Source of the DNA: Myxococcus stipitatus
GTDB taxonomy: Bacteria > Myxococcota > Myxococcia > Myxococcales > Myxococcaceae
Assembly (NCBI RefSeq): GCF_037414475.1
Contig: NZ_CP147913.1
Location: 3,968,001 to 4,032,000, forward strand
Length of the DNA: 64,000 nt
Direction: 5' to 3'
Position 1 is the stretch's first letter. Every line of letters starts with the position of its first letter. The position numbers and the translations under genes are program-made. Below are positions 12,219 to 59,439 of the stretch, piece after piece. The notes below the pieces were generated by a model. It was not told the origin of the DNA and made no database searches. It saw only the letters and a list, made by a program, of their open reading frames with translations.

Positions 12219-12557
12219 TCAGTGGCGATACTGCTCGTGCTGGGCCTGCGTGTAGTGCTGGAGCTGCCGGCGCGCGGCCTCGAACGCATCCGTCACGGCC
12301 TGGTAGGGGTCCTCATGCGCGGCGTGCTCGGCCGCGGTCCGGCCCGCGCTGATGTCCTTGCCCGGCACGTGCAGGTCCACCCGCACGCGGAACTGATGCC
12401 CGTGATGCTGATGCCGGTGCGGCTCGTCCACGACGACATGGCATCCCACGATGCCATCGAAGAACTGCTCGAGCTTGGCCGCATGGTCGCGAATGTGTTC
12501 GTTGAGGGCCTCGCTCGTCGCCATGCCCCGGTAGGTAATCTGCAACGCTCGCTTCAT
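12219..12557 (-). CDS. HPF/RaiA-family ribosome-associated protein
   Basis: A 112-residue protein beginning MKRALQITYRGMATSEALNEHIRDHAAKLEQFFDGIVGCHVVVDEP, matching the short ribosome hibernation/RaiA fold (beta-alpha-beta3-alpha). Conserved features are the N-terminal strand, the helix ending KLEQFFD and the C-terminal helix DAFEAARRQLQHY. The C-terminal half is unusually His-rich (HRHQHHGHQF). Family members bind the 30S decoding region and silence or dimerise ribosomes in stationary phase. It starts inside a longer open frame; the N-terminal strand begins exactly at this ATG. Confidence 0.85.
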   Translation of the reverse strand: MKRALQITYRGMATSEALNEHIRDHAAKLEQFFDGIVGCHVVVDEPHRHQHHGHQFRVRVDLHVPGKDISAGRTAAEHAAHEDPYQAVTDAFEAARRQLQHYTQAQHEQYRH

Positions 12558-12742
12558 CGTTGGCCTCGGGTCTGGCCCCATCCGCGTGGGGCTGGATTGC
12601 AATCCTCCCCATTGCATCTGGCCGGCCAGCGCCAACCCCTCGGAATGTCAGCATCAGGGCCCCAGGGCTTCCGCAGCCTTTGCGGCGAAATGGGACGGCA
12701 CGCAGTCCCTGCGGGGCGGTCCGCCCCAACCTCGTGGCGAGG

Positions 12743-13744
12743 CTACCGGCTCGCATCCAGCACGGCCGCGCCACGCACGTGCCCCTCGCGCAGCGCGGTG
12801 AGCGCCTCGTTCGCGGCGGAGAGCGGGAACACCTCCACCTCCGTGCGCACGGGCACCTGGGGCGCGAGCATCAGGAAGTCCAGCGCATCCGCGCGCGTGA
12901 GGTTCGCCACCGAGCGCACCACGCGCTCCTCCCAGAGCAGCTCATACGGGAACGACGGCACATCACTCATGTGGATGCCGCCGCACACCACCACGCCGCC
13001 CTTGTCCACGGCGCGCAGCGCGGCGGGCACCAGCGCCCCCACGGGAGCAAAGAGGATGGCCGCGTCCAAGGGCTCCGGGGGCACCTCATCCGAGCCCCCC
13101 GCCCACACCGCGCCCAGCTCCCTGGCGAAGTGCTGCCCCGCGTCGTCTCCGGGCCGGGTGAAGGCAAACACGCGCCGTCCCTGATGACGCGCCACCTGGA
13201 TGAGCACATGCGCGGCGGCGCCAAAGCCATACATCCCCAGCCGCACGCTGTCTCCCGCCATGCGCAGGCTGCGAAAGCCGATGAGCCCCGCGCACATCAA
13301 CGGCGCGACGTGGACGTCCTCGTCGTTCGCGGGCAGCGGGAAGCAGAAGCGGTGGTGCGCCACGGTGTACTCCGCGTAACCCCCATCCACCTGGTAACCG
13401 GTGAAGCGCGCGTAGTCGCAGAGGTTCTCGCGGCCGGAGACGCAGAAGCGGCACTGGCCGCACGTCCATCCAAGCCAGGGCACGCCCACGCGGGTGCCCA
13501 CCTCCAGCCCCATCACCTCGGCGCCCGCCTCGACGACAGTGGCCACCACTTCATGGCCCGGCACCACGGGCAGCTTGGGCCGGGGCAGCTCCCCGTCCAC
13601 CAGGTGCAGGTCCGTGCGGCACACCGCGCACGCATGCACCCGCAGCAGCACCTCCCGCGGCCCCGGACGCGGCACGGGCCACCGCTCCTCTCGAAGCGGC
13701 TGCCCGGGTGCGTGGAGAACCATCACACGCATGGTGCCTTCCAT
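12743..13744 (-). CDS. Zinc-dependent alcohol dehydrogenase (MDR family)
   Basis: Medium-chain dehydrogenase of 333 residues. The GroES-like half carries the catalytic zinc site (CAVCRTDLHLVDG, PGHEVVATV) and the four-Cys structural zinc site (CGQCRFCVSGRENLC). The Rossmann half has GMYGFGAAAHVLIQVARHQG for NAD(P) binding. Sequence style is close to the AdhA-like primary alcohol dehydrogenases, but the substrate is not predictable. An alternative start is the ATG four codons later (MRVMVLHAPG). Genes on either side are unrelated. Confidence 0.92.
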   Translation of the reverse strand: MEGTMRVMVLHAPGQPLREERWPVPRPGPREVLLRVHACAVCRTDLHLVDGELPRPKLPVVPGHEVVATVVEAGAEVMGLEVGTRVGVPWLGWTCGQCRFCVSGRENLCDYARFTGYQVDGGYAEYTVAHHRFCFPLPANDEDVHVAPLMCAGLIGFRSLRMAGDSVRLGMYGFGAAAHVLIQVARHQGRRVFAFTRPGDDAGQHFARELGAVWAGGSDEVPPEPLDAAILFAPVGALVPAALRAVDKGGVVVCGGIHMSDVPSFPYELLWEERVVRSVANLTRADALDFLMLAPQVPVRTEVEVFPLSAANEALTALREGHVRGAAVLDASR

Positions 13745-13843
13745 GGGGTCGCTCCCTCCGCCGCCTCACTCGACAAAGAGGCGGTCAGAGGGAACTTGGG
13801 GGGCGCCTCGCTCGTCGGGAAGCGCCCCTGGACGCTCCGCCCA

Positions 13844-15340
13844 TCAAATCTGGATGCCCGCGAGGATGCCCGGCCAGGTACGCACGGTGGTGCGCCCGCT
13901 CTCGGAGGTCTCCTTCCACTCCGGCCCGATGCCCAGCTCCTTCCACGGGTCGCTGCCGTTCCACGTCACGAGCGTGTTGGCGCTCACCCCGCCGAACACC
14001 GCGAAGCGGCGCGCCACCTGCCAGCCCGCAATCAAGCGCAGCTGTCCCAGCACGTGGTTGGTGTCGTCCTCGAAGTCGAAGAGGCGGTTCGCATGCACGC
14101 TGGAGCCCATGAGGTCCATGTCGACGAAGAAGCGCCCCAGCGGAATGTGGCCACCGATGCCCAGCCCCATCGTGTAGCGGCGCCGGTCTCCGCCCATGGG
14201 CGGCGTCAGGCCCACGTTGAGCAACGTGTAGATGTGCTGCCCGCCCAGCTTCAGGCTCAGGTTCGTCAGCGCCACGTCGCTCGCCCACACCTGCACGTTC
14301 GCCTGACCGTTGCCCACGAAGCTCAAGAGGCCCACCGACTCGCCTTGCGTCTCGCCCGCCACGTTCACCAGGCCCACCTGCGCGCCGTCGATGCGGCTGG
14401 CCACGTTCACCAGGCCCACCTGCGCGCCATCCACCGAGCCGCCCACGTTGATGATGGACACCTGCGCGCCGGACAGCTTGCCCGCGTAGCTCACGCCCGA
14501 CGACATCTGCAGGCCCGACAGGTCCGAGGCCACGTTGACGCCCGCCGCCATCTGCACGCCGCGCGAGACGCCGCTCGCCACGTTGCCGCCCACCGCCATC
14601 TGCAAGCCATTGAGCGACTCGCCCGCCAGGTTGCCACCCACGCCCAGCTGCGCGCCCAGCACCTTGCCCGTCACCACGTTGGCGCCCACCGTCATCTGCG
14701 AGCCATCCAGCGAGCCCGTCACCACGTTGGCGCCCACCGAGGCCAGGACCCCCGTCGCGCCACCGCGCACGATGTTGGTGCCCACCGAGGCCAGCAGCCC
14801 CTCCGAGTCCTTCGTCAGGATGTTGCCGCCCACCGCGAAGAGCGAGCCGTTCACCGGGCCCTGCACGATGTTGACGCCCGTGGTGGCCAGCACGCCGCTG
14901 GAGCCACCCTCGCCCACGAAGTTGCCGCCCAGCGACAACCCCAGCGCCCGGATGCGCTTGGCCTGCGTGGCGATGAGCCCGATGGACACGTCATGCACCT
15001 GGTTGCGCTGGGAGAAGCCGGAGGTGCTCAGGCCCGGCACCACCGCGAAGCTGAAGGGCACGTGGACTTCGTCGGCGCCCGCCTTCGCCTGGGCCTGCAC
15101 CGCCGTGGGCGCATCCGGGGCCGCCGCCGCGCCCGTGGTGCCCACCGCCGCCGCCTCCACCAGGGGAGGCGCCGCCATCGCCCGCTCCACCCCGGGACCC
15201 TCCACCGCCGGCGCCGCGCTCCCCGTGGCGTCCGCCGCGGGCACGGGCGCCTGCTCGGCTCCCTTCGACTCCTCGGCGCCAGCGGACATCGCCACCATCG
15301 CCGCCATGACGCCCGCACACACCGAGACCTTGCGCTTCAT
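13844..15340 (-). CDS. Secreted repeat protein, LA_2272-type surface repeats
   Basis: A 498-residue exported protein. The signal peptide (MKRKVSVCAGVMAAMVAMSAGAEE) starts at an ATG preceded by AGGAAGG. An Ala/Pro/Glu-rich linker follows, then from about residue 95 to 320 a run of short hydrophobic/Gly repeats such as VGANVVTGSLDGSQM and AQVGLVNVASRIDG, the pattern of LA_2272 surface repeats and likely a beta-helix or barrel-like solenoid. The last ~150 residues (LGIGGHIPLGRFFVDMDLMGSS ... FAVFGGVSANTLV) look like amphipathic strands of an outer-membrane beta-barrel. No function is known; envelope localisation is likely. Confidence 0.78.
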   Translation of the reverse strand: MKRKVSVCAGVMAAMVAMSAGAEESKGAEQAPVPAADATGSAAPAVEGPGVERAMAAPPLVEAAAVGTTGAAAAPDAPTAVQAQAKAGADEVHVPFSFAVVPGLSTSGFSQRNQVHDVSIGLIATQAKRIRALGLSLGGNFVGEGGSSGVLATTGVNIVQGPVNGSLFAVGGNILTKDSEGLLASVGTNIVRGGATGVLASVGANVVTGSLDGSQMTVGANVVTGKVLGAQLGVGGNLAGESLNGLQMAVGGNVASGVSRGVQMAAGVNVASDLSGLQMSSGVSYAGKLSGAQVSIINVGGSVDGAQVGLVNVASRIDGAQVGLVNVAGETQGESVGLLSFVGNGQANVQVWASDVALTNLSLKLGGQHIYTLLNVGLTPPMGGDRRRYTMGLGIGGHIPLGRFFVDMDLMGSSVHANRLFDFEDDTNHVLGQLRLIAGWQVARRFAVFGGVSANTLVTWNGSDPWKELGIGPEWKETSESGRTTVRTWPGILAGIQI

Positions 15341-49817: not shown

Positions 49818-50216
49818 ATGATCTTTGGACGGCATTGCATCAAGACGCTGTTGATTCTCCCCTCCCTCCTCTTCGCCAGCAGTTGCAAGGAAGCGGAGGA
49901 CAAATCCGCAACTCAAAGCCAAAACTCCAGCGCCACTGTCAGCGTGCTCAGCGAGCATCGATTTCAACCCACGAGCAAGCCAACCACCCTCAAGACTCTC
50001 GGCCAAGACTGCTCATTGTCCGGACCAAGCGAATGCGCCTCTGGGGTCTGCGTGCATACGGGAACCACGCGCAACACGGGCTACATCTGTAGTCAGCGTT
50101 GCGGCCAGCAAACCCCTTGCTCCCAGGGCTGGCGCTGCGCCCGAACCCATCCCTCCGACCCGGACTCAGCCCTTTGTCTTCCGAATGAAGACGCCCCCAG
50201 CCACCCCGCTCAGTGA
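49818..50216 (+). CDS. Cys-rich lipoprotein A of Rhs locus
   Basis: A 132-residue lipoprotein. Signal peptide LLILPSLLFASSC with lipobox, then a Ser/Thr/Lys-rich linker and a Cys-rich domain (DCSLSGPSECASGVCVHTGTTRNTGYICSQRCGQQTPCSQGWRCA) of disulfide-type. The pattern CxxxxxC...GxxCxxxC closely resembles lipoprotein B after the Rhs gene. I start at MIFGRHC; the longer frame has no signal peptide. Local G+C is lower than in the core genes, and the Rhs gene begins 24 bases after its stop, so an operon with foreign origin is likely. A role as immunity or delivery factor is inference. Confidence 0.8.
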   Translation: MIFGRHCIKTLLILPSLLFASSCKEAEDKSATQSQNSSATVSVLSEHRFQPTSKPTTLKTLGQDCSLSGPSECASGVCVHTGTTRNTGYICSQRCGQQTPCSQGWRCARTHPSDPDSALCLPNEDAPSHPAQ

Positions 50217-50240
50217 GCGAACACCTCGAGAAGCAAAACC

Positions 50241-53200
50241 ATGAACCTACTCTCGGCTTTCCTCTCCGCGACACTCTCGCGGACATGTCCATTGTCAGCA
50301 CAGATACGTTTCATCCTCCTGTCCCTGCTCCTGCTACCAGCGCTGAGCGGAGCAGCGGGCCGGCTTCAAGTCTGTAGTCCAGGCACCGACGGCAAGAACT
50401 ACATATGGGCTTGCGCGTGTGGCACGGACTCCGCTGGTCAAGACGCCTCGCTGTATTGCGACGCATTGAACCAATCATCATGCAGCGGAGGCAACTGCCT
50501 CTATCCTCCTTCCGGAAAACTCGAGGACATCGGATATTATCCATGTTGCATGACGGGGTTGTATTGCCCCGCGGGGACACCCCCAAACAGCATCATCAGT
50601 GGCACCGAGACATGCGACGAGCCATGGGCGAATTGCAAGATCGACGAAGACTGTCGTGCGTCAACATCCTACTGCAGCACGGGAAAATGCAAAGGCAGTG
50701 TTGGCGAAATCAGTAGGCCCAGTGGCGAGTACAGCTCACCCGAGACACATTGCGAAGTCACCATCACCAACGCCTGCGACGACGATGACGAAGGTGAGGA
50801 CAATGAGTGCAAGACACTGGGCGAAGCACCCCACCAGGGCGAGCCAGTCCTGCTTGGAAGTGGCGCAACCAGGCATGACGTCACAGACGTCCAACTGCCC
50901 GGCGTTCTCGGAACATTGACGTTCAAGCGGAGCTATTATTCGAATTCCGAGAAGTGGGCACTGGGGGATAGCCTGCTCAGCGCTACGGGCTCAGTGCTCC
51001 CTGCCCCTTTCGGCACCTCGCCGGCACATCCCGCTTCGCTGCTCTGGTGGCACAACTTCTACAGCTTCGTCCAGCCTCGAGCCGCAACCCCCAACAGCGA
51101 GGTATGGCACGTGAGGGAAGGCAGCGGAAAGCTCCTCGACTTCACCGGTTGCCAACGTTCTCCCTCAACCTGCTTGGCTCGCCCTGCGCCACTCTCCGGA
51201 GAGACCACTGGACGTCTCGTCTGGGAGAGCACCGGCCCGAACAGCGGCTTCTTCGTCCTACATATGCCAGGGGAGGGCAGATTCATCTACGCAGACGTCT
51301 GGACTCCGCAGGGCGGCTCCGCAAACGAGGCGCGCTACTTCCTCACTCGCATCGAGGACGCGCGTCAACTCAATCCATCAGGACAAGCCCGCGTCCTTGC
51401 CACACTGACTTATGCACCTCCACTGAATCTTAATTGTCCAGGTCTGGGCGCTGGACCGAACGCAGGGGTACCTTATCTCGCAACGGTCGAGAACATAGAA
51501 GGGAAGAGACTCCGGTTCGAGTACAAGCGTGTCGCAAGCTATCAAGCAGGGCAGCCGGAACAGTGTGTCTTGTCACGCGTGTTGGCGGAGTCATCATCGA
51601 CCTCGGCCCCATCGACCCCTCTCATCGAGTACACTTACCTGAAGAACGGAGCTGCCGCCGAGTCGGCCGGCCTCATCGAAAGTGTACTGAACCTCCAGCA
51701 AAGCGGAGCCGTAGAGAGCTACACCTATCCGAACCCGCTGACTGGCACGGGACAGTGGCAACTCCTGCAGAACAACATGGCCATTGCCACCCACTCCTCG
51801 ACCAAGGGGCGCGTCACGAGTGACTTCTCTTCCAAGCGGGGGAAGCGGGGCAGCGGCAGTCTGCTTCTTCTTCCAGATGCCCTCCCAACCCCCTGCACCA
51901 ATGACTCATCCCCCGCATGCAGGAAGACCAAGACGAACCACGCGCAGCTCTATGCTTTCGATGGCAAAGGATGGGGCAACGCGTCCAATTATCTTTCACA
52001 GTACCTCCATACCTACGACATGGAGCAGACATCATTTGCACGTCCTTGGAGAATCCGCCGCGTCACTCGCCCCTGCCCCGAGGCTGCATCCTGTAGCCAG
52101 ACAAAAGAGTTCGTCTGGCATCAGTTCAGCGATGGTCCCGCTGTCACCGTCGCCGAGAAAGACTTCAAGGACGGATGGACGGTTCGAGAGTGGGCTGGTC
52201 CTCCGGATGGTGGGGTTGGCGGCTATGCGGACCTGAAGCGGGTCCATGTGGGAGCGGAGAACCGTGATGGTGGAAGTGCGTTGGAAACCGTTGCCTTTGA
52301 ATACACAAACGCGACAGCCGGTACGGGACTCCTGGTAGGGGAGCGACTTCGAACAGAGGAAAGACAAGACTCGGTCCTCGTCCCCAGCGGCGAAGCAGTG
52401 ACGCGCTATGTCCACGACACCGCCACCAATCGGCTGAAAGCCGCGATTCGGAGTGGCTATACACAAGGCCTGACCGGAACCACCTGGGATACAGTTCCTG
52501 TCCTGAAACATGTCGGCACCTTCTACTTCACGCGACACGCCTGTTCGGGCGCATCAACGGAAGATGCGTTGGGGCGCGTTCTGGAGGTGCATGGCCCATG
52601 CTGGGTCGACAGTCCCACCGCGACTGATTGCTCCTCGTCTCTCAACGCACAAGTTCCCATCACTCAGTATCACTATTGGCCCGCGGGAACTTCGGGGTAC
52701 GACGCTCATCGACTTCAGAAGGTGGTTCGCTTCCCGAATACAGGAGGAGGGACTTCCTGCGTTGGCCAACATGGCCTCGAAACGGTCTACGCGGACTATG
52801 ACTTGTGGGGCCAACCTCGCGTTGTCACGGACGCCAATGGCGTGAGCACCACCTACACGTACGAGATGAATCGAGTCACCTCGATCTCCACGCAGGGGGC
52901 CACTTGGAACTATACCTACGACAAGGGGGCGCTCTCCTACGTGCAGTCACCTCGTGGAGACTACGAGATGCTCTGTCGACGCGACAATGGCGGCTCTGCC
53001 TCGCACTGCTCCGGCAATTGGTACGATGACATTCGCGTCCGGAGCAAGATTCCCTATCCAGGGGGCCCTGCCTACGAGTTCATTCGATACGAACGGGGCG
53101 CTGATGGCCTTCTTGGCTCAGAGACCTATCTAGGTGCGTATACAAACGGTCATATGGAGTTCCGGGCGAATTACCATCAAGCAAACCTGGATGGCATGCC

Positions 53201-56200
53201 CAGCGCTGAGCGCACAGGGGGAGGCCTTGACTTCTATCGGGGGTATTTCTTCAAGCCACGACTCTTTGATGGTGCTGAGCGGTTGGTGGGTATTGGGGCT
53301 CCCTACCTGATACCACCCTCCCTCTGCAACGGCTTGGCCCAGGATGGACGCCCTGTGTCCCCGCTTTGCTCCGCGCTCAGCTATGACCGCGCGAATCGTC
53401 TGACGGGGCTTGAGCAGTATCCGGAAATTGGAACTCGTACCGGCGGCGCGCGATCCTGCTTCTCATATGATGTCCAAGGCAACGTTCACACAGTGCGGAG
53501 TGGATGCCCGACTGCCAGCGGTGCGGTGGGGGACTGCTCCGCTTGCACTCAACCCCTTTCGGCGTATCGGCATGATGACTTCGGGAATCTCATTGACGTC
53601 ACCTTGCCTTGGTTGAGCGGAAGCGGAAGGACTCGGTTCAGCTACGACGCCACGGGGCAAGTCCGCGCGAAGCAGACTCCCCAGATGGAGCTTGGCGCGG
53701 AACACCTCGCCTATGCCTATGACGCACTGGGCAGACTCCTCTCAACAGCACGCATCGTGGGTGGCGTCACTCCAGCCACCGAACTGCTCTTCACGCTGGG
53801 ATACGACCAGTCCGCTACGCCTCATGCCAGCTGTCCCCAGCCGGCGAATACACAAGGTCGACTGCTGTTCCGAAACGATTCCTTTGGACAGACCTGGTAC
53901 TCGTACGACGGGCACGGGAGAGTCATTCGGGAGATCAGGGCACGACGCGGCACGACAGGCTCCTTCTCCTGTCCAGTGGACTCCCCGAGCAACACCCTGC
54001 ATACGACGTACAACTACTCTGCCGCGGGTGACCTGACCTCGATTGAGTACCCCTATGGGCACAAAGTCACGTACCAGTATCGGATGTATGCTGGAACGTC
54101 GATTCCCTCTGATCGAGTGGGAGCCGTCCAGGTTGCACGCTGGAACGGCACGGGCTGGACGAGCCTCGCCTCTATCTCCAACATTGAATGGCAGCCCTAC
54201 GGAGGGCTGCGTGCATACCAAATCAATCCGCCAAGCTCGACACAGCCTGTCACGGTGGATTATTTCCCCCATCTTTACACCCAGTCGCCACCCAGCTCCT
54301 GTGCAGCCGATGCCGGGGGATATCAAGGCTCGGTCGACCTGTCAGGACGCACGCGCGGCATCCTCGTCTCGTCTGGGAGTTTTGGCCTCTCAAGCGGTAC
54401 AGGGAACATCTACAAGCGCTTCTACACGTGGAAAGGGGACCAGGTCATCCGCACAGATACCTGCCTCCTGGGTGCAACAACCCCTGTCATCGAGGAGTTC
54501 ACCTATGATGGCCTCCTCCGACTCTCCAGTGCGACTCGCCCTGCTGGGAACCTCGCGGCCACAGGTGGCGCATACGAATCTCGTCGCTACACCTATGATG
54601 GACGAGGAAATCGTTTGACCGAGGAGGTCGATGGCCAGGTGCACACACTGGCCCACGGCACGGGTGGGTTCGTGGACAGGCTGGAAAGCCGGACTGGGAC
54701 TGGGGTCAATTCAGCCTTGAACCTCCAGTTCACCTATGATGCCGACGGTCGCGCCAAGGAGAAACTCGGGGCCTTTGTGAGCGGAATCGCCAGGCACAAA
54801 CTGGAGTTCAACATGGGGCCTTCGGCCAATGGCGGCAACGAGACTGTCTTCCGGTCCGTCAAAGTCAATGGCAGTACATATGAGTACTTCTATGACGCGT
54901 TCAACCGGCGGCGGCTCAAGAGATACCCGAGTACGGCTGAGGATGAGTTTTTTTACGACACGTCGAGCCACTTGCTTGTAGACCGCGGCAACCCAAGCGC
55001 TACACCACCGCAGGGCGGGTATCCCGACTTTGTCGACGACACCTATGTGTGGCTTGGGAATCGTCCGATCATGGTGGTGAGGGGACGACTGACGGCACAG
55101 ATGGAGAGAGACAGCAATCCGACAAACAGTTGTGGGCGCAATGGAGCGCCTGCGACCTGTGGAGTCTACTTCCCTGTCACGGACCTTCTAGGCAAGCCTG
55201 TCTTGATGCTGGATCAGGCCGGCAAGGTCTCTGGGACTGCAGACTACGAGCCATTTGGCCATGTCAATCGAGTCACATTGCCAGCAGAAACGCCCCATCC
55301 TTACCCGGGCAGCATGAACACCATTCTTGCAACCCTCGCGCAGGCAACAACCAGCTCTCTCGTGACAACCCGCTTCCGCGCTCAATTCGACCACGTTGAC
55401 ATCAAGGATGCCGCCGACTTCGCTTCGCTCGTTGACGTAGCCACAGGAGTGTCCCAAGGTCCAACAATCTCACAGGCGGGTGGTGGACAACTCTGGAGCC
55501 ATTGGGTCCAACCAACGACCCCTCAGCTTCGTATTGAATTCACCTCGGACGCGACGCCTGCGAGCTGCGGTGGCTGCGACCCCAACCAAGCTTCCTGTGC
55601 AATCAAGTGCGGCCCTGCGGATGGCGTCATTCTTGCGGGCTACGAATACCAGCGTCTCCAAGTCGGAGCAGAGCCATTCTGGACGCCGCTTCGCTTCCCT
55701 GGGCTGTATCATGACGAAGAAACGGATCTCTTCGAGAACTGGAACCGATATTACGACGCAAGCAATGGCAGGTATCTGCAGCCAGAGCCGATGGTACAGA
55801 ATCCGCGCTACCTGCGGGCGGTGGCCAAGGATGGGCACTCCGTGCCTGCCTACGCTTACGCGCTGAACAACCCATTGCATTTCGCCGACCCCGATGGCCT
55901 GCGCTTTATGAATCTCACTGAGCGTGAGCGCTGGGCGATAAACCGACTCCGACTGAACCCAATCATTGGACCAATGATTAGAGAGCTCGATGATTCGCGA
56001 GACATTCAGATCGGAATGCGGAGTGGACCGAGCCCGAGCGGCGCAGAAATGGAGTTCTTGCCCGGAGAGTCAGGACGTGGATGCTCAGGGAGCAGACCGG
56101 CCTTCGGCGTGGTCAAGTACGACGTGACAACGGCCAACAGGTTGGCTCAACAGTTCTGGGGCGGGAGCCTCTGGCTCGACCCGGTACTCGCTCATGAACT

Positions 56201-56324
56201 GGGACATATATATCACTTATGGAGGGGTGGTTCGGGTCTCGGTGGAAATACAGCGATTGACTGGGAGAATGCGGCAAACCCAGGTGCAACGCCTCGTCCT
56301 CCAGGATTCATGGACACCCCATGA
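50241..56324 (+). CDS. Rhs/YD-repeat protein with C-terminal HELGH metallopeptidase toxin domain
   Basis: A 2027-residue secreted Rhs protein. N-terminus: long n-region and a signal peptide (FILLSLLLLPALSGAAG), then a Cys-rich segment (CACGTDSAGQDASLYCDAL, CCMTGLYCPAG, CKIDEDC). From ~210 it has a DUF6531-like start (VQLPGVLGTLTFKRSYYSN) and many YD repeats (YDANGRLT-like). A beta-sandwich insert near 1700-1810 precedes the core PEPMVQNPRYL...YAYALNNPLHFADPDGL (ends near 1888). The last ~139 residues carry HELGHIYHLWRG (His1985-Glu-Leu-Gly-His1989) and DWENAANPG, a zincin-like toxin tip. It lies in a lower-G+C island between two lipoproteins. Confidence 0.92.
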   Translation: MNLLSAFLSATLSRTCPLSAQIRFILLSLLLLPALSGAAGRLQVCSPGTDGKNYIWACACGTDSAGQDASLYCDALNQSSCSGGNCLYPPSGKLEDIGYYPCCMTGLYCPAGTPPNSIISGTETCDEPWANCKIDEDCRASTSYCSTGKCKGSVGEISRPSGEYSSPETHCEVTITNACDDDDEGEDNECKTLGEAPHQGEPVLLGSGATRHDVTDVQLPGVLGTLTFKRSYYSNSEKWALGDSLLSATGSVLPAPFGTSPAHPASLLWWHNFYSFVQPRAATPNSEVWHVREGSGKLLDFTGCQRSPSTCLARPAPLSGETTGRLVWESTGPNSGFFVLHMPGEGRFIYADVWTPQGGSANEARYFLTRIEDARQLNPSGQARVLATLTYAPPLNLNCPGLGAGPNAGVPYLATVENIEGKRLRFEYKRVASYQAGQPEQCVLSRVLAESSSTSAPSTPLIEYTYLKNGAAAESAGLIESVLNLQQSGAVESYTYPNPLTGTGQWQLLQNNMAIATHSSTKGRVTSDFSSKRGKRGSGSLLLLPDALPTPCTNDSSPACRKTKTNHAQLYAFDGKGWGNASNYLSQYLHTYDMEQTSFARPWRIRRVTRPCPEAASCSQTKEFVWHQFSDGPAVTVAEKDFKDGWTVREWAGPPDGGVGGYADLKRVHVGAENRDGGSALETVAFEYTNATAGTGLLVGERLRTEERQDSVLVPSGEAVTRYVHDTATNRLKAAIRSGYTQGLTGTTWDTVPVLKHVGTFYFTRHACSGASTEDALGRVLEVHGPCWVDSPTATDCSSSLNAQVPITQYHYWPAGTSGYDAHRLQKVVRFPNTGGGTSCVGQHGLETVYADYDLWGQPRVVTDANGVSTTYTYEMNRVTSISTQGATWNYTYDKGALSYVQSPRGDYEMLCRRDNGGSASHCSGNWYDDIRVRSKIPYPGGPAYEFIRYERGADGLLGSETYLGAYTNGHMEFRANYHQANLDGMPSAERTGGGLDFYRGYFFKPRLFDGAERLVGIGAPYLIPPSLCNGLAQDGRPVSPLCSALSYDRANRLTGLEQYPEIGTRTGGARSCFSYDVQGNVHTVRSGCPTASGAVGDCSACTQPLSAYRHDDFGNLIDVTLPWLSGSGRTRFSYDATGQVRAKQTPQMELGAEHLAYAYDALGRLLSTARIVGGVTPATELLFTLGYDQSATPHASCPQPANTQGRLLFRNDSFGQTWYSYDGHGRVIREIRARRGTTGSFSCPVDSPSNTLHTTYNYSAAGDLTSIEYPYGHKVTYQYRMYAGTSIPSDRVGAVQVARWNGTGWTSLASISNIEWQPYGGLRAYQINPPSSTQPVTVDYFPHLYTQSPPSSCAADAGGYQGSVDLSGRTRGILVSSGSFGLSSGTGNIYKRFYTWKGDQVIRTDTCLLGATTPVIEEFTYDGLLRLSSATRPAGNLAATGGAYESRRYTYDGRGNRLTEEVDGQVHTLAHGTGGFVDRLESRTGTGVNSALNLQFTYDADGRAKEKLGAFVSGIARHKLEFNMGPSANGGNETVFRSVKVNGSTYEYFYDAFNRRRLKRYPSTAEDEFFYDTSSHLLVDRGNPSATPPQGGYPDFVDDTYVWLGNRPIMVVRGRLTAQMERDSNPTNSCGRNGAPATCGVYFPVTDLLGKPVLMLDQAGKVSGTADYEPFGHVNRVTLPAETPHPYPGSMNTILATLAQATTSSLVTTRFRAQFDHVDIKDAADFASLVDVATGVSQGPTISQAGGGQLWSHWVQPTTPQLRIEFTSDATPASCGGCDPNQASCAIKCGPADGVILAGYEYQRLQVGAEPFWTPLRFPGLYHDEETDLFENWNRYYDASNGRYLQPEPMVQNPRYLRAVAKDGHSVPAYAYALNNPLHFADPDGLRFMNLTERERWAINRLRLNPIIGPMIRELDDSRDIQIGMRSGPSPSGAEMEFLPGESGRGCSGSRPAFGVVKYDVTTANRLAQQFWGGSLWLDPVLAHELGHIYHLWRGGSGLGGNTAIDWENAANPGATPRPPGFMDTP

Positions 56325-56641
56325 CAACTCACCCAAGTGCTGTTCTGGTGGTCTTGGCGTCCGTCTTCCTGAGCACAGTCAGTTGCCAGCGCGACGCTGA
56401 CTCATTGGAGGTTTCTACTCAGTCACTCGAGCGAAGCGGAACGCCGTGCACCTCCCCTTCGGATTGCGAGAAGGGGCTCACGTGTGCCGCAGGCACCAAC
56501 TTCGCGCACGTGGATGCCGGGTTCACCTGTCAAATGGAGTGCGAACCCTCGATGAAGAGTGCATGTGCCAAAGGATGGGAGTGTGTGCTGGTGATTGACG
56601 GGCCCGGAAGTACCCTTCCCGGGCTGTGCCGCCGAAAATAG
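56321..56641 (+). CDS. Cys-rich lipoprotein B, immunity candidate
   Basis: A 106-residue lipoprotein. The signal peptide ends LASVFLSTVSC, then a Ser/Glu linker and a Cys-rich domain (PCTSPSDCEKGLTCAAGTNFAHVDAGFTCQMECEPSMKSACAKGWECV) like that of lipoprotein A before the Rhs gene. Its ATG overlaps the Rhs stop codon (ATGA), so the two are translationally coupled. A small gene directly after an Rhs toxin gene is usually the immunity gene; here the periplasmic, lipid-anchored location fits a toxin that acts outside the cytoplasm. Function is inferred from position only. Confidence 0.82.
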   Translation: MTTHPSAVLVVLASVFLSTVSCQRDADSLEVSTQSLERSGTPCTSPSDCEKGLTCAAGTNFAHVDAGFTCQMECEPSMKSACAKGWECVLVIDGPGSTLPGLCRRK

Positions 56642-56650
56642 AAGGTCGTG

Positions 56651-56680
56651 CTGTGTCGGGGAGCAAGCGAGCCGACACAG
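56651..56680 (+). terminator. Perfect 9-bp hairpin after Rhs operon (first of three)
   Basis: CTGTGTCGG (56651-56659) pairs perfectly with CCGACACAG (56672-56680), starting 9 bases after the lipoprotein B stop codon. Probable first terminator of the Rhs operon. Confidence 0.55.
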
Positions 56681-56692
56681 AACCATCACCGT

Positions 56693-56721
56693 CCGAGCCC
56701 ACTCTCTTCCTCTGGGCTCGG
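56693..56721 (+). terminator. Perfect 9-bp hairpin (second of three)
   Basis: CCGAGCCCA (56693-56701) pairs with TGGGCTCGG (56713-56721), 11-base loop. A back-up terminator in the same region. Confidence 0.5.
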
Positions 56722-56830
56722 GCGGCCTGAACAAGGGCAGGGTCGACTCCAGCGCCCAGGCGCGAAGCGAGGGAATGCGCAGGGCCCGGGCGATGTCCCT
56801 CCAGAGCGGGCCCTGCGTTGAATGCACCAC

Positions 56831-56862
56831 GCCCGTGCCGGGAGCCAACTCCCGGCACGGGC
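56831..56862. terminator. Perfect 14-bp hairpin (third of three)
   Basis: GCCCGTGCCGGGAG (56831-56844) pairs perfectly with CTCCCGGCACGGGC (56849-56862) over a CCAA tetraloop. It is close to the remnant IS and may be a terminator or part of the element's end. About 110 bases later the transposase remnant begins; the rest of 56642-56976 holds no gene. Confidence 0.5.
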
Positions 56863-56976
56863 ACCATCCCTAAGGCACCCACCTTGCAACCAGGTCCCAA
56901 CGGGAGACCTGATACCTCTCATCCAAACAGGAGGGCATGCGCATGTGTGGTTGGAGAAAAAGACAACGGCTGGAGG

Positions 56977-57650
56977 ATGCCGGACGAGTTGTGGACGAGG
57001 ATGGAGCCGTTTCTGCCCGGTCGGCCCACGCATCCGCTGGGGTGCCACAACCCGCGAGTGCCCGACAAGCTGGCCGTGGACGCAATTCTGCTGGTTCTGT
57101 GTATAGGAATGAAGTGGGGCGCCCTGGAGGCCACTGACATACGTCTCCCCTCTTCAGTCTACGGCGCTTCAGTGTATGGCTGTCCGCTGGTGTCTTCCGC
57201 GAGCTCTGGCAGCAAGGGCTGATTGCCTACGACTGCCTGGCGCGAATCAACTCGAGTTGGTTGGCAATGGATGGACCCATGGGCAAGGCCCCATTGGGTG
57301 GAGAGAAACCGGCCCGCGCCCTCCGACGGAGCGAGAATGGCCACCAAGAACGGACGGTTGACGGACTTTTCGAAGCCCCCCTCGGTCTCGTGATCGGTGC
57401 TGCAAACACGAACAACTTCAAGCTGGTGCGCACGGTACTCGAATCCACTCCAGCCTTCAGGCCCGCGCCCATTGGATCCACACGTCAGCACCGCTGGATA
57501 GACAGCGGCGATGACTACGTAGAGGTGCATAACCTGGCGGAGAAGTTCCATTTCACGTTGCACCTGCCTCAACGTGGCAACGGCGTGCTTACCGGGACGC
57601 GCACCTCTCAGAATCAAGCACACAGAGGATGGGGGAGAGTGGAAAACCAT
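56977..57650 (+). pseudogene. Decayed IS5-family transposase
   Basis: A transposase of the IS5 family broken by frameshifts. The first part (MPDELWTRMEPFLPGRPTHPLGCHNPRVPDKLAVDAILLVL) is in one frame; near 57140-57165 the frame changes, then FSVWLSAGVFRELWQQGL and MDGPMGKAPLGGEKPARAL ... PLGLVIGAANTNNFKLVRTVLES ... DSGDDYVEVHNLAE follow, and another shift occurs around 57640. In the DDE region the first Asp is kept but the Asp expected before GAN is lost (VIGAAN). So it is inactive. It lies next to the Rhs locus and suggests past mobility of this island. Confidence 0.85.
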
Positions 57651-57982
57651 ATTGGCTCAGCCATCGGCGTCGCATTTGCCCTTCTCGTCATCTGGGCACC
57701 ACTCGCGATCCATCGCTTTTTGAACTGGAGACGCAACTGGTAGCGCCGGCCCTTCGCAACGAACCACGGCGTTCGTCTCGAACTCGTGGAGACGAAATAG
57801 CTGGGCTCCCCGGAAACTATTGTCCCCGCATTGCGATAATTTTCAGGACCCGAGCTGTACGCCATGACGGACTGCGGCATCGGGCTGTGTCTCTCTGATC
57901 GGTGATGCGGCCGCTCGCGCGGGCCGGGCATGTGTCACGTGGGACCTCGACCGTCCTTGTCCGTCATGTCGTGAGGTCTGCA
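57651..57982. other. Intergenic region after IS remnant
   Basis: About 330 bases, the first ~100 probably being frameshifted transposase 3' end (WLSHRRR-like). After that I see no gene. An AT-rich GATAAT sits at 57835-57840 but lacks a convincing -35 partner. Confidence 0.5.
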
Positions 57983-59329
57983 ATGGGTGTCGGTTCCGCA
58001 GGCGGTTCGAGTCGTTCCTCCAGCAGCTCCAGCCGCTCCTCCAGCAGCCGGAGTTCGAGCAGCAGGTCCTCGAGCAGCAAGTCGTCCAGCAGCAAGGCCT
58101 CGAGCAACAAGGGCACGACCAACAAGGCGTCGAGCACCAAGGCCTCCAGCACGAAGGCGACCAACACCAAGGCCACGACCACCAAGGCCGCGACCACCAA
58201 GTCGGTGAGCCTCCCGAGCAACGTCCCCACCCCGACGCCGCGCCCCAACAAGGACACCTTCTCGGCGCGAGCCCTGAGCCCCACGTCCATGGCGTCCTCG
58301 TCCTTCGCCGCCGGACACTCGCTCGGCAAGCCGACAACTTCCTCGCGCACCTTGAGCAACACCCCCATGGGGGTGACACAGTCGTTCGCGACCCGCGTCG
58401 GGCCCCGCGACACCTTTACCTCCGTGAAGTCGAAGACCGTCGGCGTCCAGGACGTCAAGGGCGGCTACACCGCGAAGACCCGGCAGACGACTCCCACGGT
58501 CAACGCGCGCATGATGAGCAGCTCCTTCATGGACAGCGCGGACTTCTCCAAGACGCCCGCGGCCTCGCTGTCCGCCCCTCGCGTCACCACGCGCACCATC
58601 GGCGGCAAGCCCGTGGGCCCCGCCCAGTCCTTCACGCAGAATACGAACGCCCTCGGCACGCCCCGCGCCTTCCAGCGCGACTACGAGACGCTCGGCGGCC
58701 TCAGCCGCAAGGAAGAAGCCAAGGGCCCCGGCACCGTCTCCACCGGCAAGGGTGACCACGGCGGCGTCTCCTACGGCTCCTATCAATTCGCGTCCAACAA
58801 CGGCTCCGCGAAGGCCTTCGTCAACTCGCTCAAGACCACCCACCCGAGCTACCACGCAGCCCTGGACGGCCTGACGCCCGGCACGAAGGCGTTCTCCAAG
58901 GCCTGGAAGGACCTGGCCGCGCAGGACCCCAAGGGCTTCGACAAGGCCCAGCACGACTACATCCAGCGCACGCACTACAACATCAGCGCCTCCGAGGTCC
59001 GCAACAACACCGGCCTCGACCTGAACACGCGCTCGCAGGCCCTGCGCGACGTCGCCTGGTCCGCCTCCGTGCAGCACGGCAAGAAGGCCGTCGACTCCAT
59101 CATCAGCGCCGCGCTCAAGGGCCGCCACCCCTCCACCGTGAGCGACGCGGACCTCATCAGCGGCATCTACGCGGAGCGCGGCCGCCTCAACAAGAACGGC
59201 GAGCTTGCACACTTCTCCAGCAGCTCCAAGAGCGTCCAGGCAGGCATCAAGGCCCGCTACGCCCGCGAGAGCCAGGCCGCCCTGGACCGCCTCGCGCGCG
59301 AGTTCTCCGGCGCCACGCGCAACGACTGA
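57983..59329 (+). CDS. Lysozyme-like protein with Ser/Lys/Thr-rich N-terminus
   Basis: A 448-residue protein. Residues 1-75 are a low-complexity run of Ser with Arg, then Ser/Lys/Thr/Asn (SSSSKASSNKGTTNKASSTKA), encoded by repeated AGC/TCG codons. A Thr/Ser/Pro linker follows. The C-terminal ~210 residues contain GPGTVSTGKGDHGGVSYGSYQFASNNG, FDKAQHDYIQRTHYNISASEV and DVAWSASVQHGKKAV, the pattern of lysozyme-like domains known from phage-tail and VgrG-related proteins, suggesting peptidoglycan cleavage. There is no signal peptide, so release would need a non-Sec route. Start ATG follows GTGAGGTCTGCA. It neighbours the island but has normal G+C. Confidence 0.82.
   Translation: MGVGSAGGSSRSSSSSSRSSSSRSSSSRSSSSKSSSSKASSNKGTTNKASSTKASSTKATNTKATTTKAATTKSVSLPSNVPTPTPRPNKDTFSARALSPTSMASSSFAAGHSLGKPTTSSRTLSNTPMGVTQSFATRVGPRDTFTSVKSKTVGVQDVKGGYTAKTRQTTPTVNARMMSSSFMDSADFSKTPAASLSAPRVTTRTIGGKPVGPAQSFTQNTNALGTPRAFQRDYETLGGLSRKEEAKGPGTVSTGKGDHGGVSYGSYQFASNNGSAKAFVNSLKTTHPSYHAALDGLTPGTKAFSKAWKDLAAQDPKGFDKAQHDYIQRTHYNISASEVRNNTGLDLNTRSQALRDVAWSASVQHGKKAVDSIISAALKGRHPSTVSDADLISGIYAERGRLNKNGELAHFSSSSKSVQAGIKARYARESQAALDRLAREFSGATRND
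58013..58210 (+). repeat. Low-complexity Ser/Lys/Thr codon repeat
   Basis: An imperfect short tandem repeat within the lysozyme-like gene, built from TCGAGCAGC- and ACCAAGGCG-type units. It encodes the disordered basic N-terminus and probably varies in length between strains. Confidence 0.75.
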
Positions 59330-59439
59330 GCCCCTCGGGGGACTGAATCCCCAGGGCTCCCCGAAGAAGCTGTCGCCTTCCCGCCAACCCATCCACTCTC
59401 CGGTTGGCGGAGGCCCCCTCGGCGTGGACACTGCGCGCC

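Follow-up and report, generated by a model that had tools for sequence, protein, structure and literature searches.

The locus described here probably encodes a three-gene antibacterial polymorphic-toxin module, consisting of an exported Rhs protein that carries a peptidase tip, a lipoprotein (A) that serves as partner of the Rhs core, and a second lipoprotein (B) that would block the tip, with tip and B swapped together as a cassette. It lies in a stretch of 64,000 nucleotides of Myxococcus stipitatus DNA (hereafter the window) from a host genome that consists of one 10.3-Mb contig. Lipoprotein A, the Rhs gene (50241-56324, 2027 aa, with a Sec/SPI-type signal peptide) and lipoprotein B form one low-GC operon. 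The features, in window positions, are as follows.

49818..50216, + strand: lipoprotein A, 132 aa; ATG at 49818, TGA at 50214-50216; SPII lipobox FASS/C; 'SEHR' motif and eight-Cys domain.
50241..55904, + strand: Rhs N-terminus and RHS/YD-repeat shell, residues 1-1888; SPI signal peptide, Cys-rich segment, DUF6531-like; up to '...NPLHFADPDGL'.
55905..56324, + strand: variable C-terminal tip, residues 1889-2027; predicted zincin (gluzincin-like, M91/HopH1-like) peptidase with HELGH and the downstream W-E-N glutamate.
56321..56641, + strand: lipoprotein B, 106 aa; ATG at 56321; lipobox TVS/C; eight conserved Cys; candidate immunity protein of the tip.
56818..57219, + strand: decayed IS4/5-family transposase (PF13340, E=4e-9); no continuous frame beyond.
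55793..59366, no strand assigned: strain-specific segment with the last part of the core, the tip, B, the IS remnant and a VgrG3-like ORF.

An earlier note on this DNA had described the lipoprotein-Rhs-lipoprotein order, and checking the coordinates on the DNA bears it out: 24 bases separate A from the Rhs gene, and the start of B overlaps the Rhs stop codon as ATGA. The lower G+C that the note had seen relative to the flanks (58-61% across 50-58 kb vs. 65-74% elsewhere in the window) and the IS remnant after the locus are likewise there. The kinship proposed between the two lipoproteins holds as a distant one (profile-profile E=3.8e-5, probability 71%), with an eight-cysteine framework in both proteins. 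Downstream of B, inside the strain-specific segment, a 475-aa ORF (57902-59329, + strand) has a T6SS VgrG3-like C-terminal domain (PF21277, E=1.4e-52) and is possibly a second effector.

The Rhs protein combines a conserved core with an exchangeable end. Pfam and NCBIfam models recognize RHS repeats (PF05593, E=4.5e-18) and the RHS-associated core (TIGR03696, E=1.1e-12), and return nothing convincing for A, B and the tip. Family members from a search of 61 genomes are 28-84% identical, and nearly all alignments stop at about residue 1887, where unrelated tips start in about 40 homologues whose loci were read with their surroundings. Most homologues end the core in '..NPxxxxDPxG' or a close variant. 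The tips that follow, assigned to types by eye from motifs, comprise other HExxH peptidases, JAB-like tips with CHTHP, and HNH-like, nucleotidyltransferase-like and glycine-rich pore-like tips. Among these homologues the downstream gene varies along with the tip, in agreement with the earlier reading of the locus as a polymorphic Rhs toxin with an immunity gene at its 3' end. Five relatives of about 1400 aa (L059, L060, L062, L063, L065) keep lipoprotein A and end in short tails of 33-59 aa with a common 'PGAS/T' motif; no clear immunity gene follows them, leaving A and core without a toxin.

Rhs proteins of the family carry SPI-type signal peptides, and that of the window protein has no lipobox. 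Having a Sec signal and no PAAR or VgrG N-terminal domain, the window Rhs does not fall among T6SS-delivered Rhs proteins. At the border of the tip, the second motif (DPDG) of the two-Asp (DPxG...DPxG) autoproteolysis site is present in the window. At the first Asp position of the Rhs aspartyl-protease site, the window protein (about residue 1850) and 30 of 45 family members have Glu ('PEP'), with Asp in 7 and the position unread in 8. Glu at the place of the first catalytic Asp of the self-cleavage site is unusual.

The exchange can be followed at a single chromosomal position, which is shared by three other species (L039, L040, L041). Their citrate-synthase side aligns with the window at 79-85% DNA identity. 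From there, DNA homology covers A and the core, ends at 55.79 kb of the window and returns at 59.37 kb with 89-90% identity in L040 and L041; the flanks of 55793-59366 are 65-90% identical to these two on both sides. Among the four species, conservation covers A (46-85% identity) and the core (65-84%), whereas the tip and the downstream protein are replaced, their 18-26% identity being at the level of shuffled sequences. This comparison, which the earlier note had proposed as a check, reveals that tip and downstream gene vary together. In L039 the full Rhs gene is immediately followed by a truncated Rhs 3' cassette of 784 aa (12454-14806; core from residue 1259, JAB-like CHTHP tip) together with a downstream lipoprotein, a classic orphan toxin-immunity cassette.

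The tip of the window protein looks like a zinc protease, as the earlier note had proposed. HELGH and the downstream W-E-N are near-invariant in the four closest tips, with H97, E98, H101, W120 and E121 invariant. In an AlphaFold2 model of the tip, built from three sequences and of medium quality (pLDDT 72, pTM 0.73), helices and strands follow one another as in a small zincin. The best structural matches of this model consist almost entirely of zincins and further HExxH-type hydrolases (YbeY, selecase, neurolysin, an SPRTN-type DPC protease), at middling Z-scores of 5-6.7 and a best Foldseek E of 0.07. VgrG2b, NleD and HopH1, which may nonetheless be kin, are absent among the fold matches listed. 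Against Peptidase_M91 (PF14891) the tip stays under the gathering cut-off (13.5 bits vs. 25, E=0.09) and is therefore ruled out as a canonical member; canonical PF14891 proteins of the phylum are almost all found in reading frames of 300-700 aa. The tip is rare, since searches with the tip only, across 195 genomes of the phylum, yield five further family members in four further genera. A match in Pirellula (L109) is a peptidase motif within a longer protein and not a tip of this family. In L046/L047, the gene downstream of a HEGGH tip encodes another candidate immunity protein, of 129 aa, with an N-terminal TM segment and a C-terminal half that reads like a GspG pseudopilin.

Judging from its linkage to the tip, lipoprotein B very probably serves as the immunity protein, anchored in the envelope, against this predicted zincin toxin. 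A cysteine-rich exported gene, mostly a lipoprotein, lies directly downstream in all five other members of the tip family. In L103, L104 and L105 it is a homologue of B, the latter two loci having four-base overlaps; in L117 and L118 the cysteine-rich lipoprotein gives no significant score to the B profile. L103 carries the same tip family and a B homologue on an Rhs core of another type. A hand-made tally of loci gives an association of tip and downstream gene in 4/4 vs. 1/39 (Fisher p=4e-5), and an automated count of exported downstream genes, which has visible mis-picks (L104, L058, L070), is borderline at 12/16 peptidase tips vs. 11/27 other tips (p=0.056). B homologues with 45-66% identity also occur alone, without a toxin, in six genomes (L096-L101), and in L096 about 28 nt ahead of the start of the lone gene resemble the 3' end of the tip gene; these are marks of orphan immunity genes. 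The predicted structure of B is a poor model. In L097 (11074-12283) and in L100 (8325-9306), a pair of distinct cysteine-rich lipoproteins is found with no toxin, the two lying near each other in a small polyimmunity-like cluster.

Lipoprotein A follows the core. Homologues found with an iterated profile precede 38 other family Rhs genes, with any tip. In 37 genomes, all 30 matches at E<1e-12 lie directly upstream of a family Rhs gene, and the weaker matches are mostly cysteine repeats within longer proteins. Full-length Rhs members without A are L044 and L064 (contig ends, where the upstream sequence is missing), L078 (a different gene at that place) and one L056 copy, in which A has decayed. 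Because A is linked to the core whatever the tip, an immunity role is ruled out for it and, on this linkage, A is a dedicated partner of Rhs proteins that have a signal peptide, and may tether or chaperone them. The earlier note had taken both lipoproteins as immunity and/or delivery factors; with B linked to the tip and A to the core, the immunity part stands for B and falls for A. Position +2 of A is Lys in the window, as in just 4 of 33 A proteins. Lys at +2 marks inner-membrane lipoproteins in M. xanthus (PMC3222651), and A with this residue may therefore stop short of the outer membrane. A weak NCBIfam match had suggested a relative of the gliding lipoprotein CglC, which is ruled out (hhalign probability 2.5%), and the match of A to a metallocarboxypeptidase inhibitor in the PDB (E=0.96) is taken as chance.

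The domain common to A and B also allows both to be partners of the Rhs protein in delivery or structure. Protection would then come from caging of the tip, which RHS proteins generally hold within the shell, and B would be a second copy of A that lies downstream by chance. The different behavior of the two genes makes this improbable: B is replaced along with the tip whereas A remains next to the core, B lacks the 'SEHR' segment conserved in A, and B-type genes follow the tip family on the different core type of L103 and stand alone in the six genomes mentioned. Moreover, a bacterial teneurin shell gave E. coli no protection (PMC13018210).

The peptidase could instead serve in processing or predation rather than as an anti-kin toxin, with B as an inhibitor that guards the envelope of the producer during secretion. 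Myxobacteria are predators that secrete proteases, and a family of surface or secreted Rhs proteins is consistent with such a role. However, we consider this unlikely, since extremely diverse tips on one core (nuclease-, JAB-, pore-like and peptidase), with downstream genes to match, are the hallmark of polymorphic toxins and not of one digestive enzyme. A degenerate locus, in which tip and B arrived with the IS and are out of use, would suit the IS remnant downstream of B and the G+C below that of the flanks but is very hard to reconcile with three intact frames in operon spacing and overlap, an intact catalytic motif in the tip and relatives with a homologous chassis at the same site.

The toxin-immunity module that we favor has counterparts among described systems. 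Both polymorphic Rhs toxins that have an immunity gene at the 3' end and kin-discrimination Rhs proteins with signal peptides are well known. The C-terminal gluzincin of VgrG2b of P. aeruginosa kills from the periplasm. There it is blocked by PA0261, which is targeted to the envelope, depends on disulfides and in some species is a lipoprotein (PMC6899460). Like this pair (the Tpe-Tpi family), the window locus joins a predicted C-terminal zinc peptidase (HExxH, glutamate ligand) to a small downstream candidate immunity protein directed to the envelope. In contrast, the VgrG2b peptidase is delivered by the T6SS on VgrG whereas the window tip sits on a signal-peptide Rhs protein, and the VgrG2b system has no upstream partner lipoprotein. 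The two pairs have no detectable sequence kinship (no PDB sequence matches the tip profile at E<=1), although a shared fold is possible. A small zincin with HExxH and a [DE]N motif, as predicted here, also forms the end of the RHS proteins that carry Tox-HopH1/Tox-MPTase tips (Zhang et al., 2012, PMC3482391). That survey of polymorphic toxins gives no immunity protein for them, and its sole lipoprotein immunity protein, Imm65, is tied to Tox-JAB-1. The JAB-like tips of L043 and of the second cassette of L039, paired with downstream lipoproteins, may be the Tox-JAB-1/Imm65 of the same survey.

Within the myxobacteria, the closest parallels differ in how the toxin is anchored or delivered. The Rhs4/Rhs5 kin-discrimination proteins of Myxococcus are, like the window Rhs, large signal-peptide Rhs proteins with a polymorphic C-terminus, and they kill non-kin independently of the T6SS, presumably from the cell surface (reviewed in PMC10433427). 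Unlike the window Rhs, they are about 4000 aa long and are carried on Mx-alpha elements, and the passage on them in that review mentions no partner lipoprotein. SitBAI has the same myxobacterial three-gene order of accessory gene, toxin and immunity gene with the signals reversed: its toxin is a lipoprotein and its accessory SitB has a type I signal, whereas in the window it is the toxin that carries the type I signal and the accessory protein that is the lipoprotein. SitA lipoprotein toxins travel by outer-membrane exchange (PMC5562445); the window Rhs, unlike them, has no type II (lipoprotein) signal. Judged by sequence, it may act from the surface as assumed for Rhs4/Rhs5 or pass between cells in the manner of SitA, the earlier note having suggested outer-membrane exchange for the lipoproteins. 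The two PA14 proteins found in the genome are not clearly TraA. Bacterial teneurin-like proteins, frequent in Myxococcota, share the YD/RHS shell, the polymorphic toxic C-terminus and the downstream immunity gene. FN-plug and NHL domains belong to their architecture, and those of myxobacteria are predicted SPII lipoproteins (PMC13018210), whereas the lipid anchor of the window system would come from a separate protein. General Pfam models find only RHS and DUF6531 in the window Rhs, and no NHL repeat.

Taken together, these comparisons are compatible with the following sequence of events. The Rhs protein, with the signal peptide predicted from its sequence, would be exported by Sec, its tip lying in or on the RHS shell as the family suggests. 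A, which accompanies the core at almost all family loci, most likely serves to anchor the Rhs protein in the cell envelope or to fold it there. Once delivered to a neighbor by a contact-dependent route, the tip would act outside the cytoplasm as a zinc metallopeptidase, consistent with its predicted fold and motif. B, linked to the tip at the gene level and fixed by its lipid anchor in the envelope of producer cells and their kin, would bind and block the tip via its own disulfide-rich domain. By analogy with VgrG2b/PA0261, we propose that the tip acts in the envelope of the neighbor and is blocked there by B. Tip and B would then be exchanged as a cassette into a conserved chassis of A and core.

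In the open literature we found no description of partner lipoprotein A, no immunity family for HopH1-like tips and no account of the domain common to A and B. More tentatively, the locus may represent a distinct lipoprotein-partnered class of signal-peptide Rhs weapons, with a lipid-free shell protein, A as its separate anchor or chaperone for delivery, and immunity lipoproteins of the peptidase tips (B) derived from the same cysteine-rich domain as A. If so, delivery factor and antidote would have a common ancestor. The pair of tip and B offers a candidate immunity protein for HopH1-like peptidase tips, for which none is listed in PMC3482391. Since its matches at E<1e-12 sit beside such Rhs genes alone, and in nearly every locus of the family, A is an obvious genetic handle on how signal-peptide Rhs proteins are held at the surface and delivered without a T6SS in Gram-negative bacteria.
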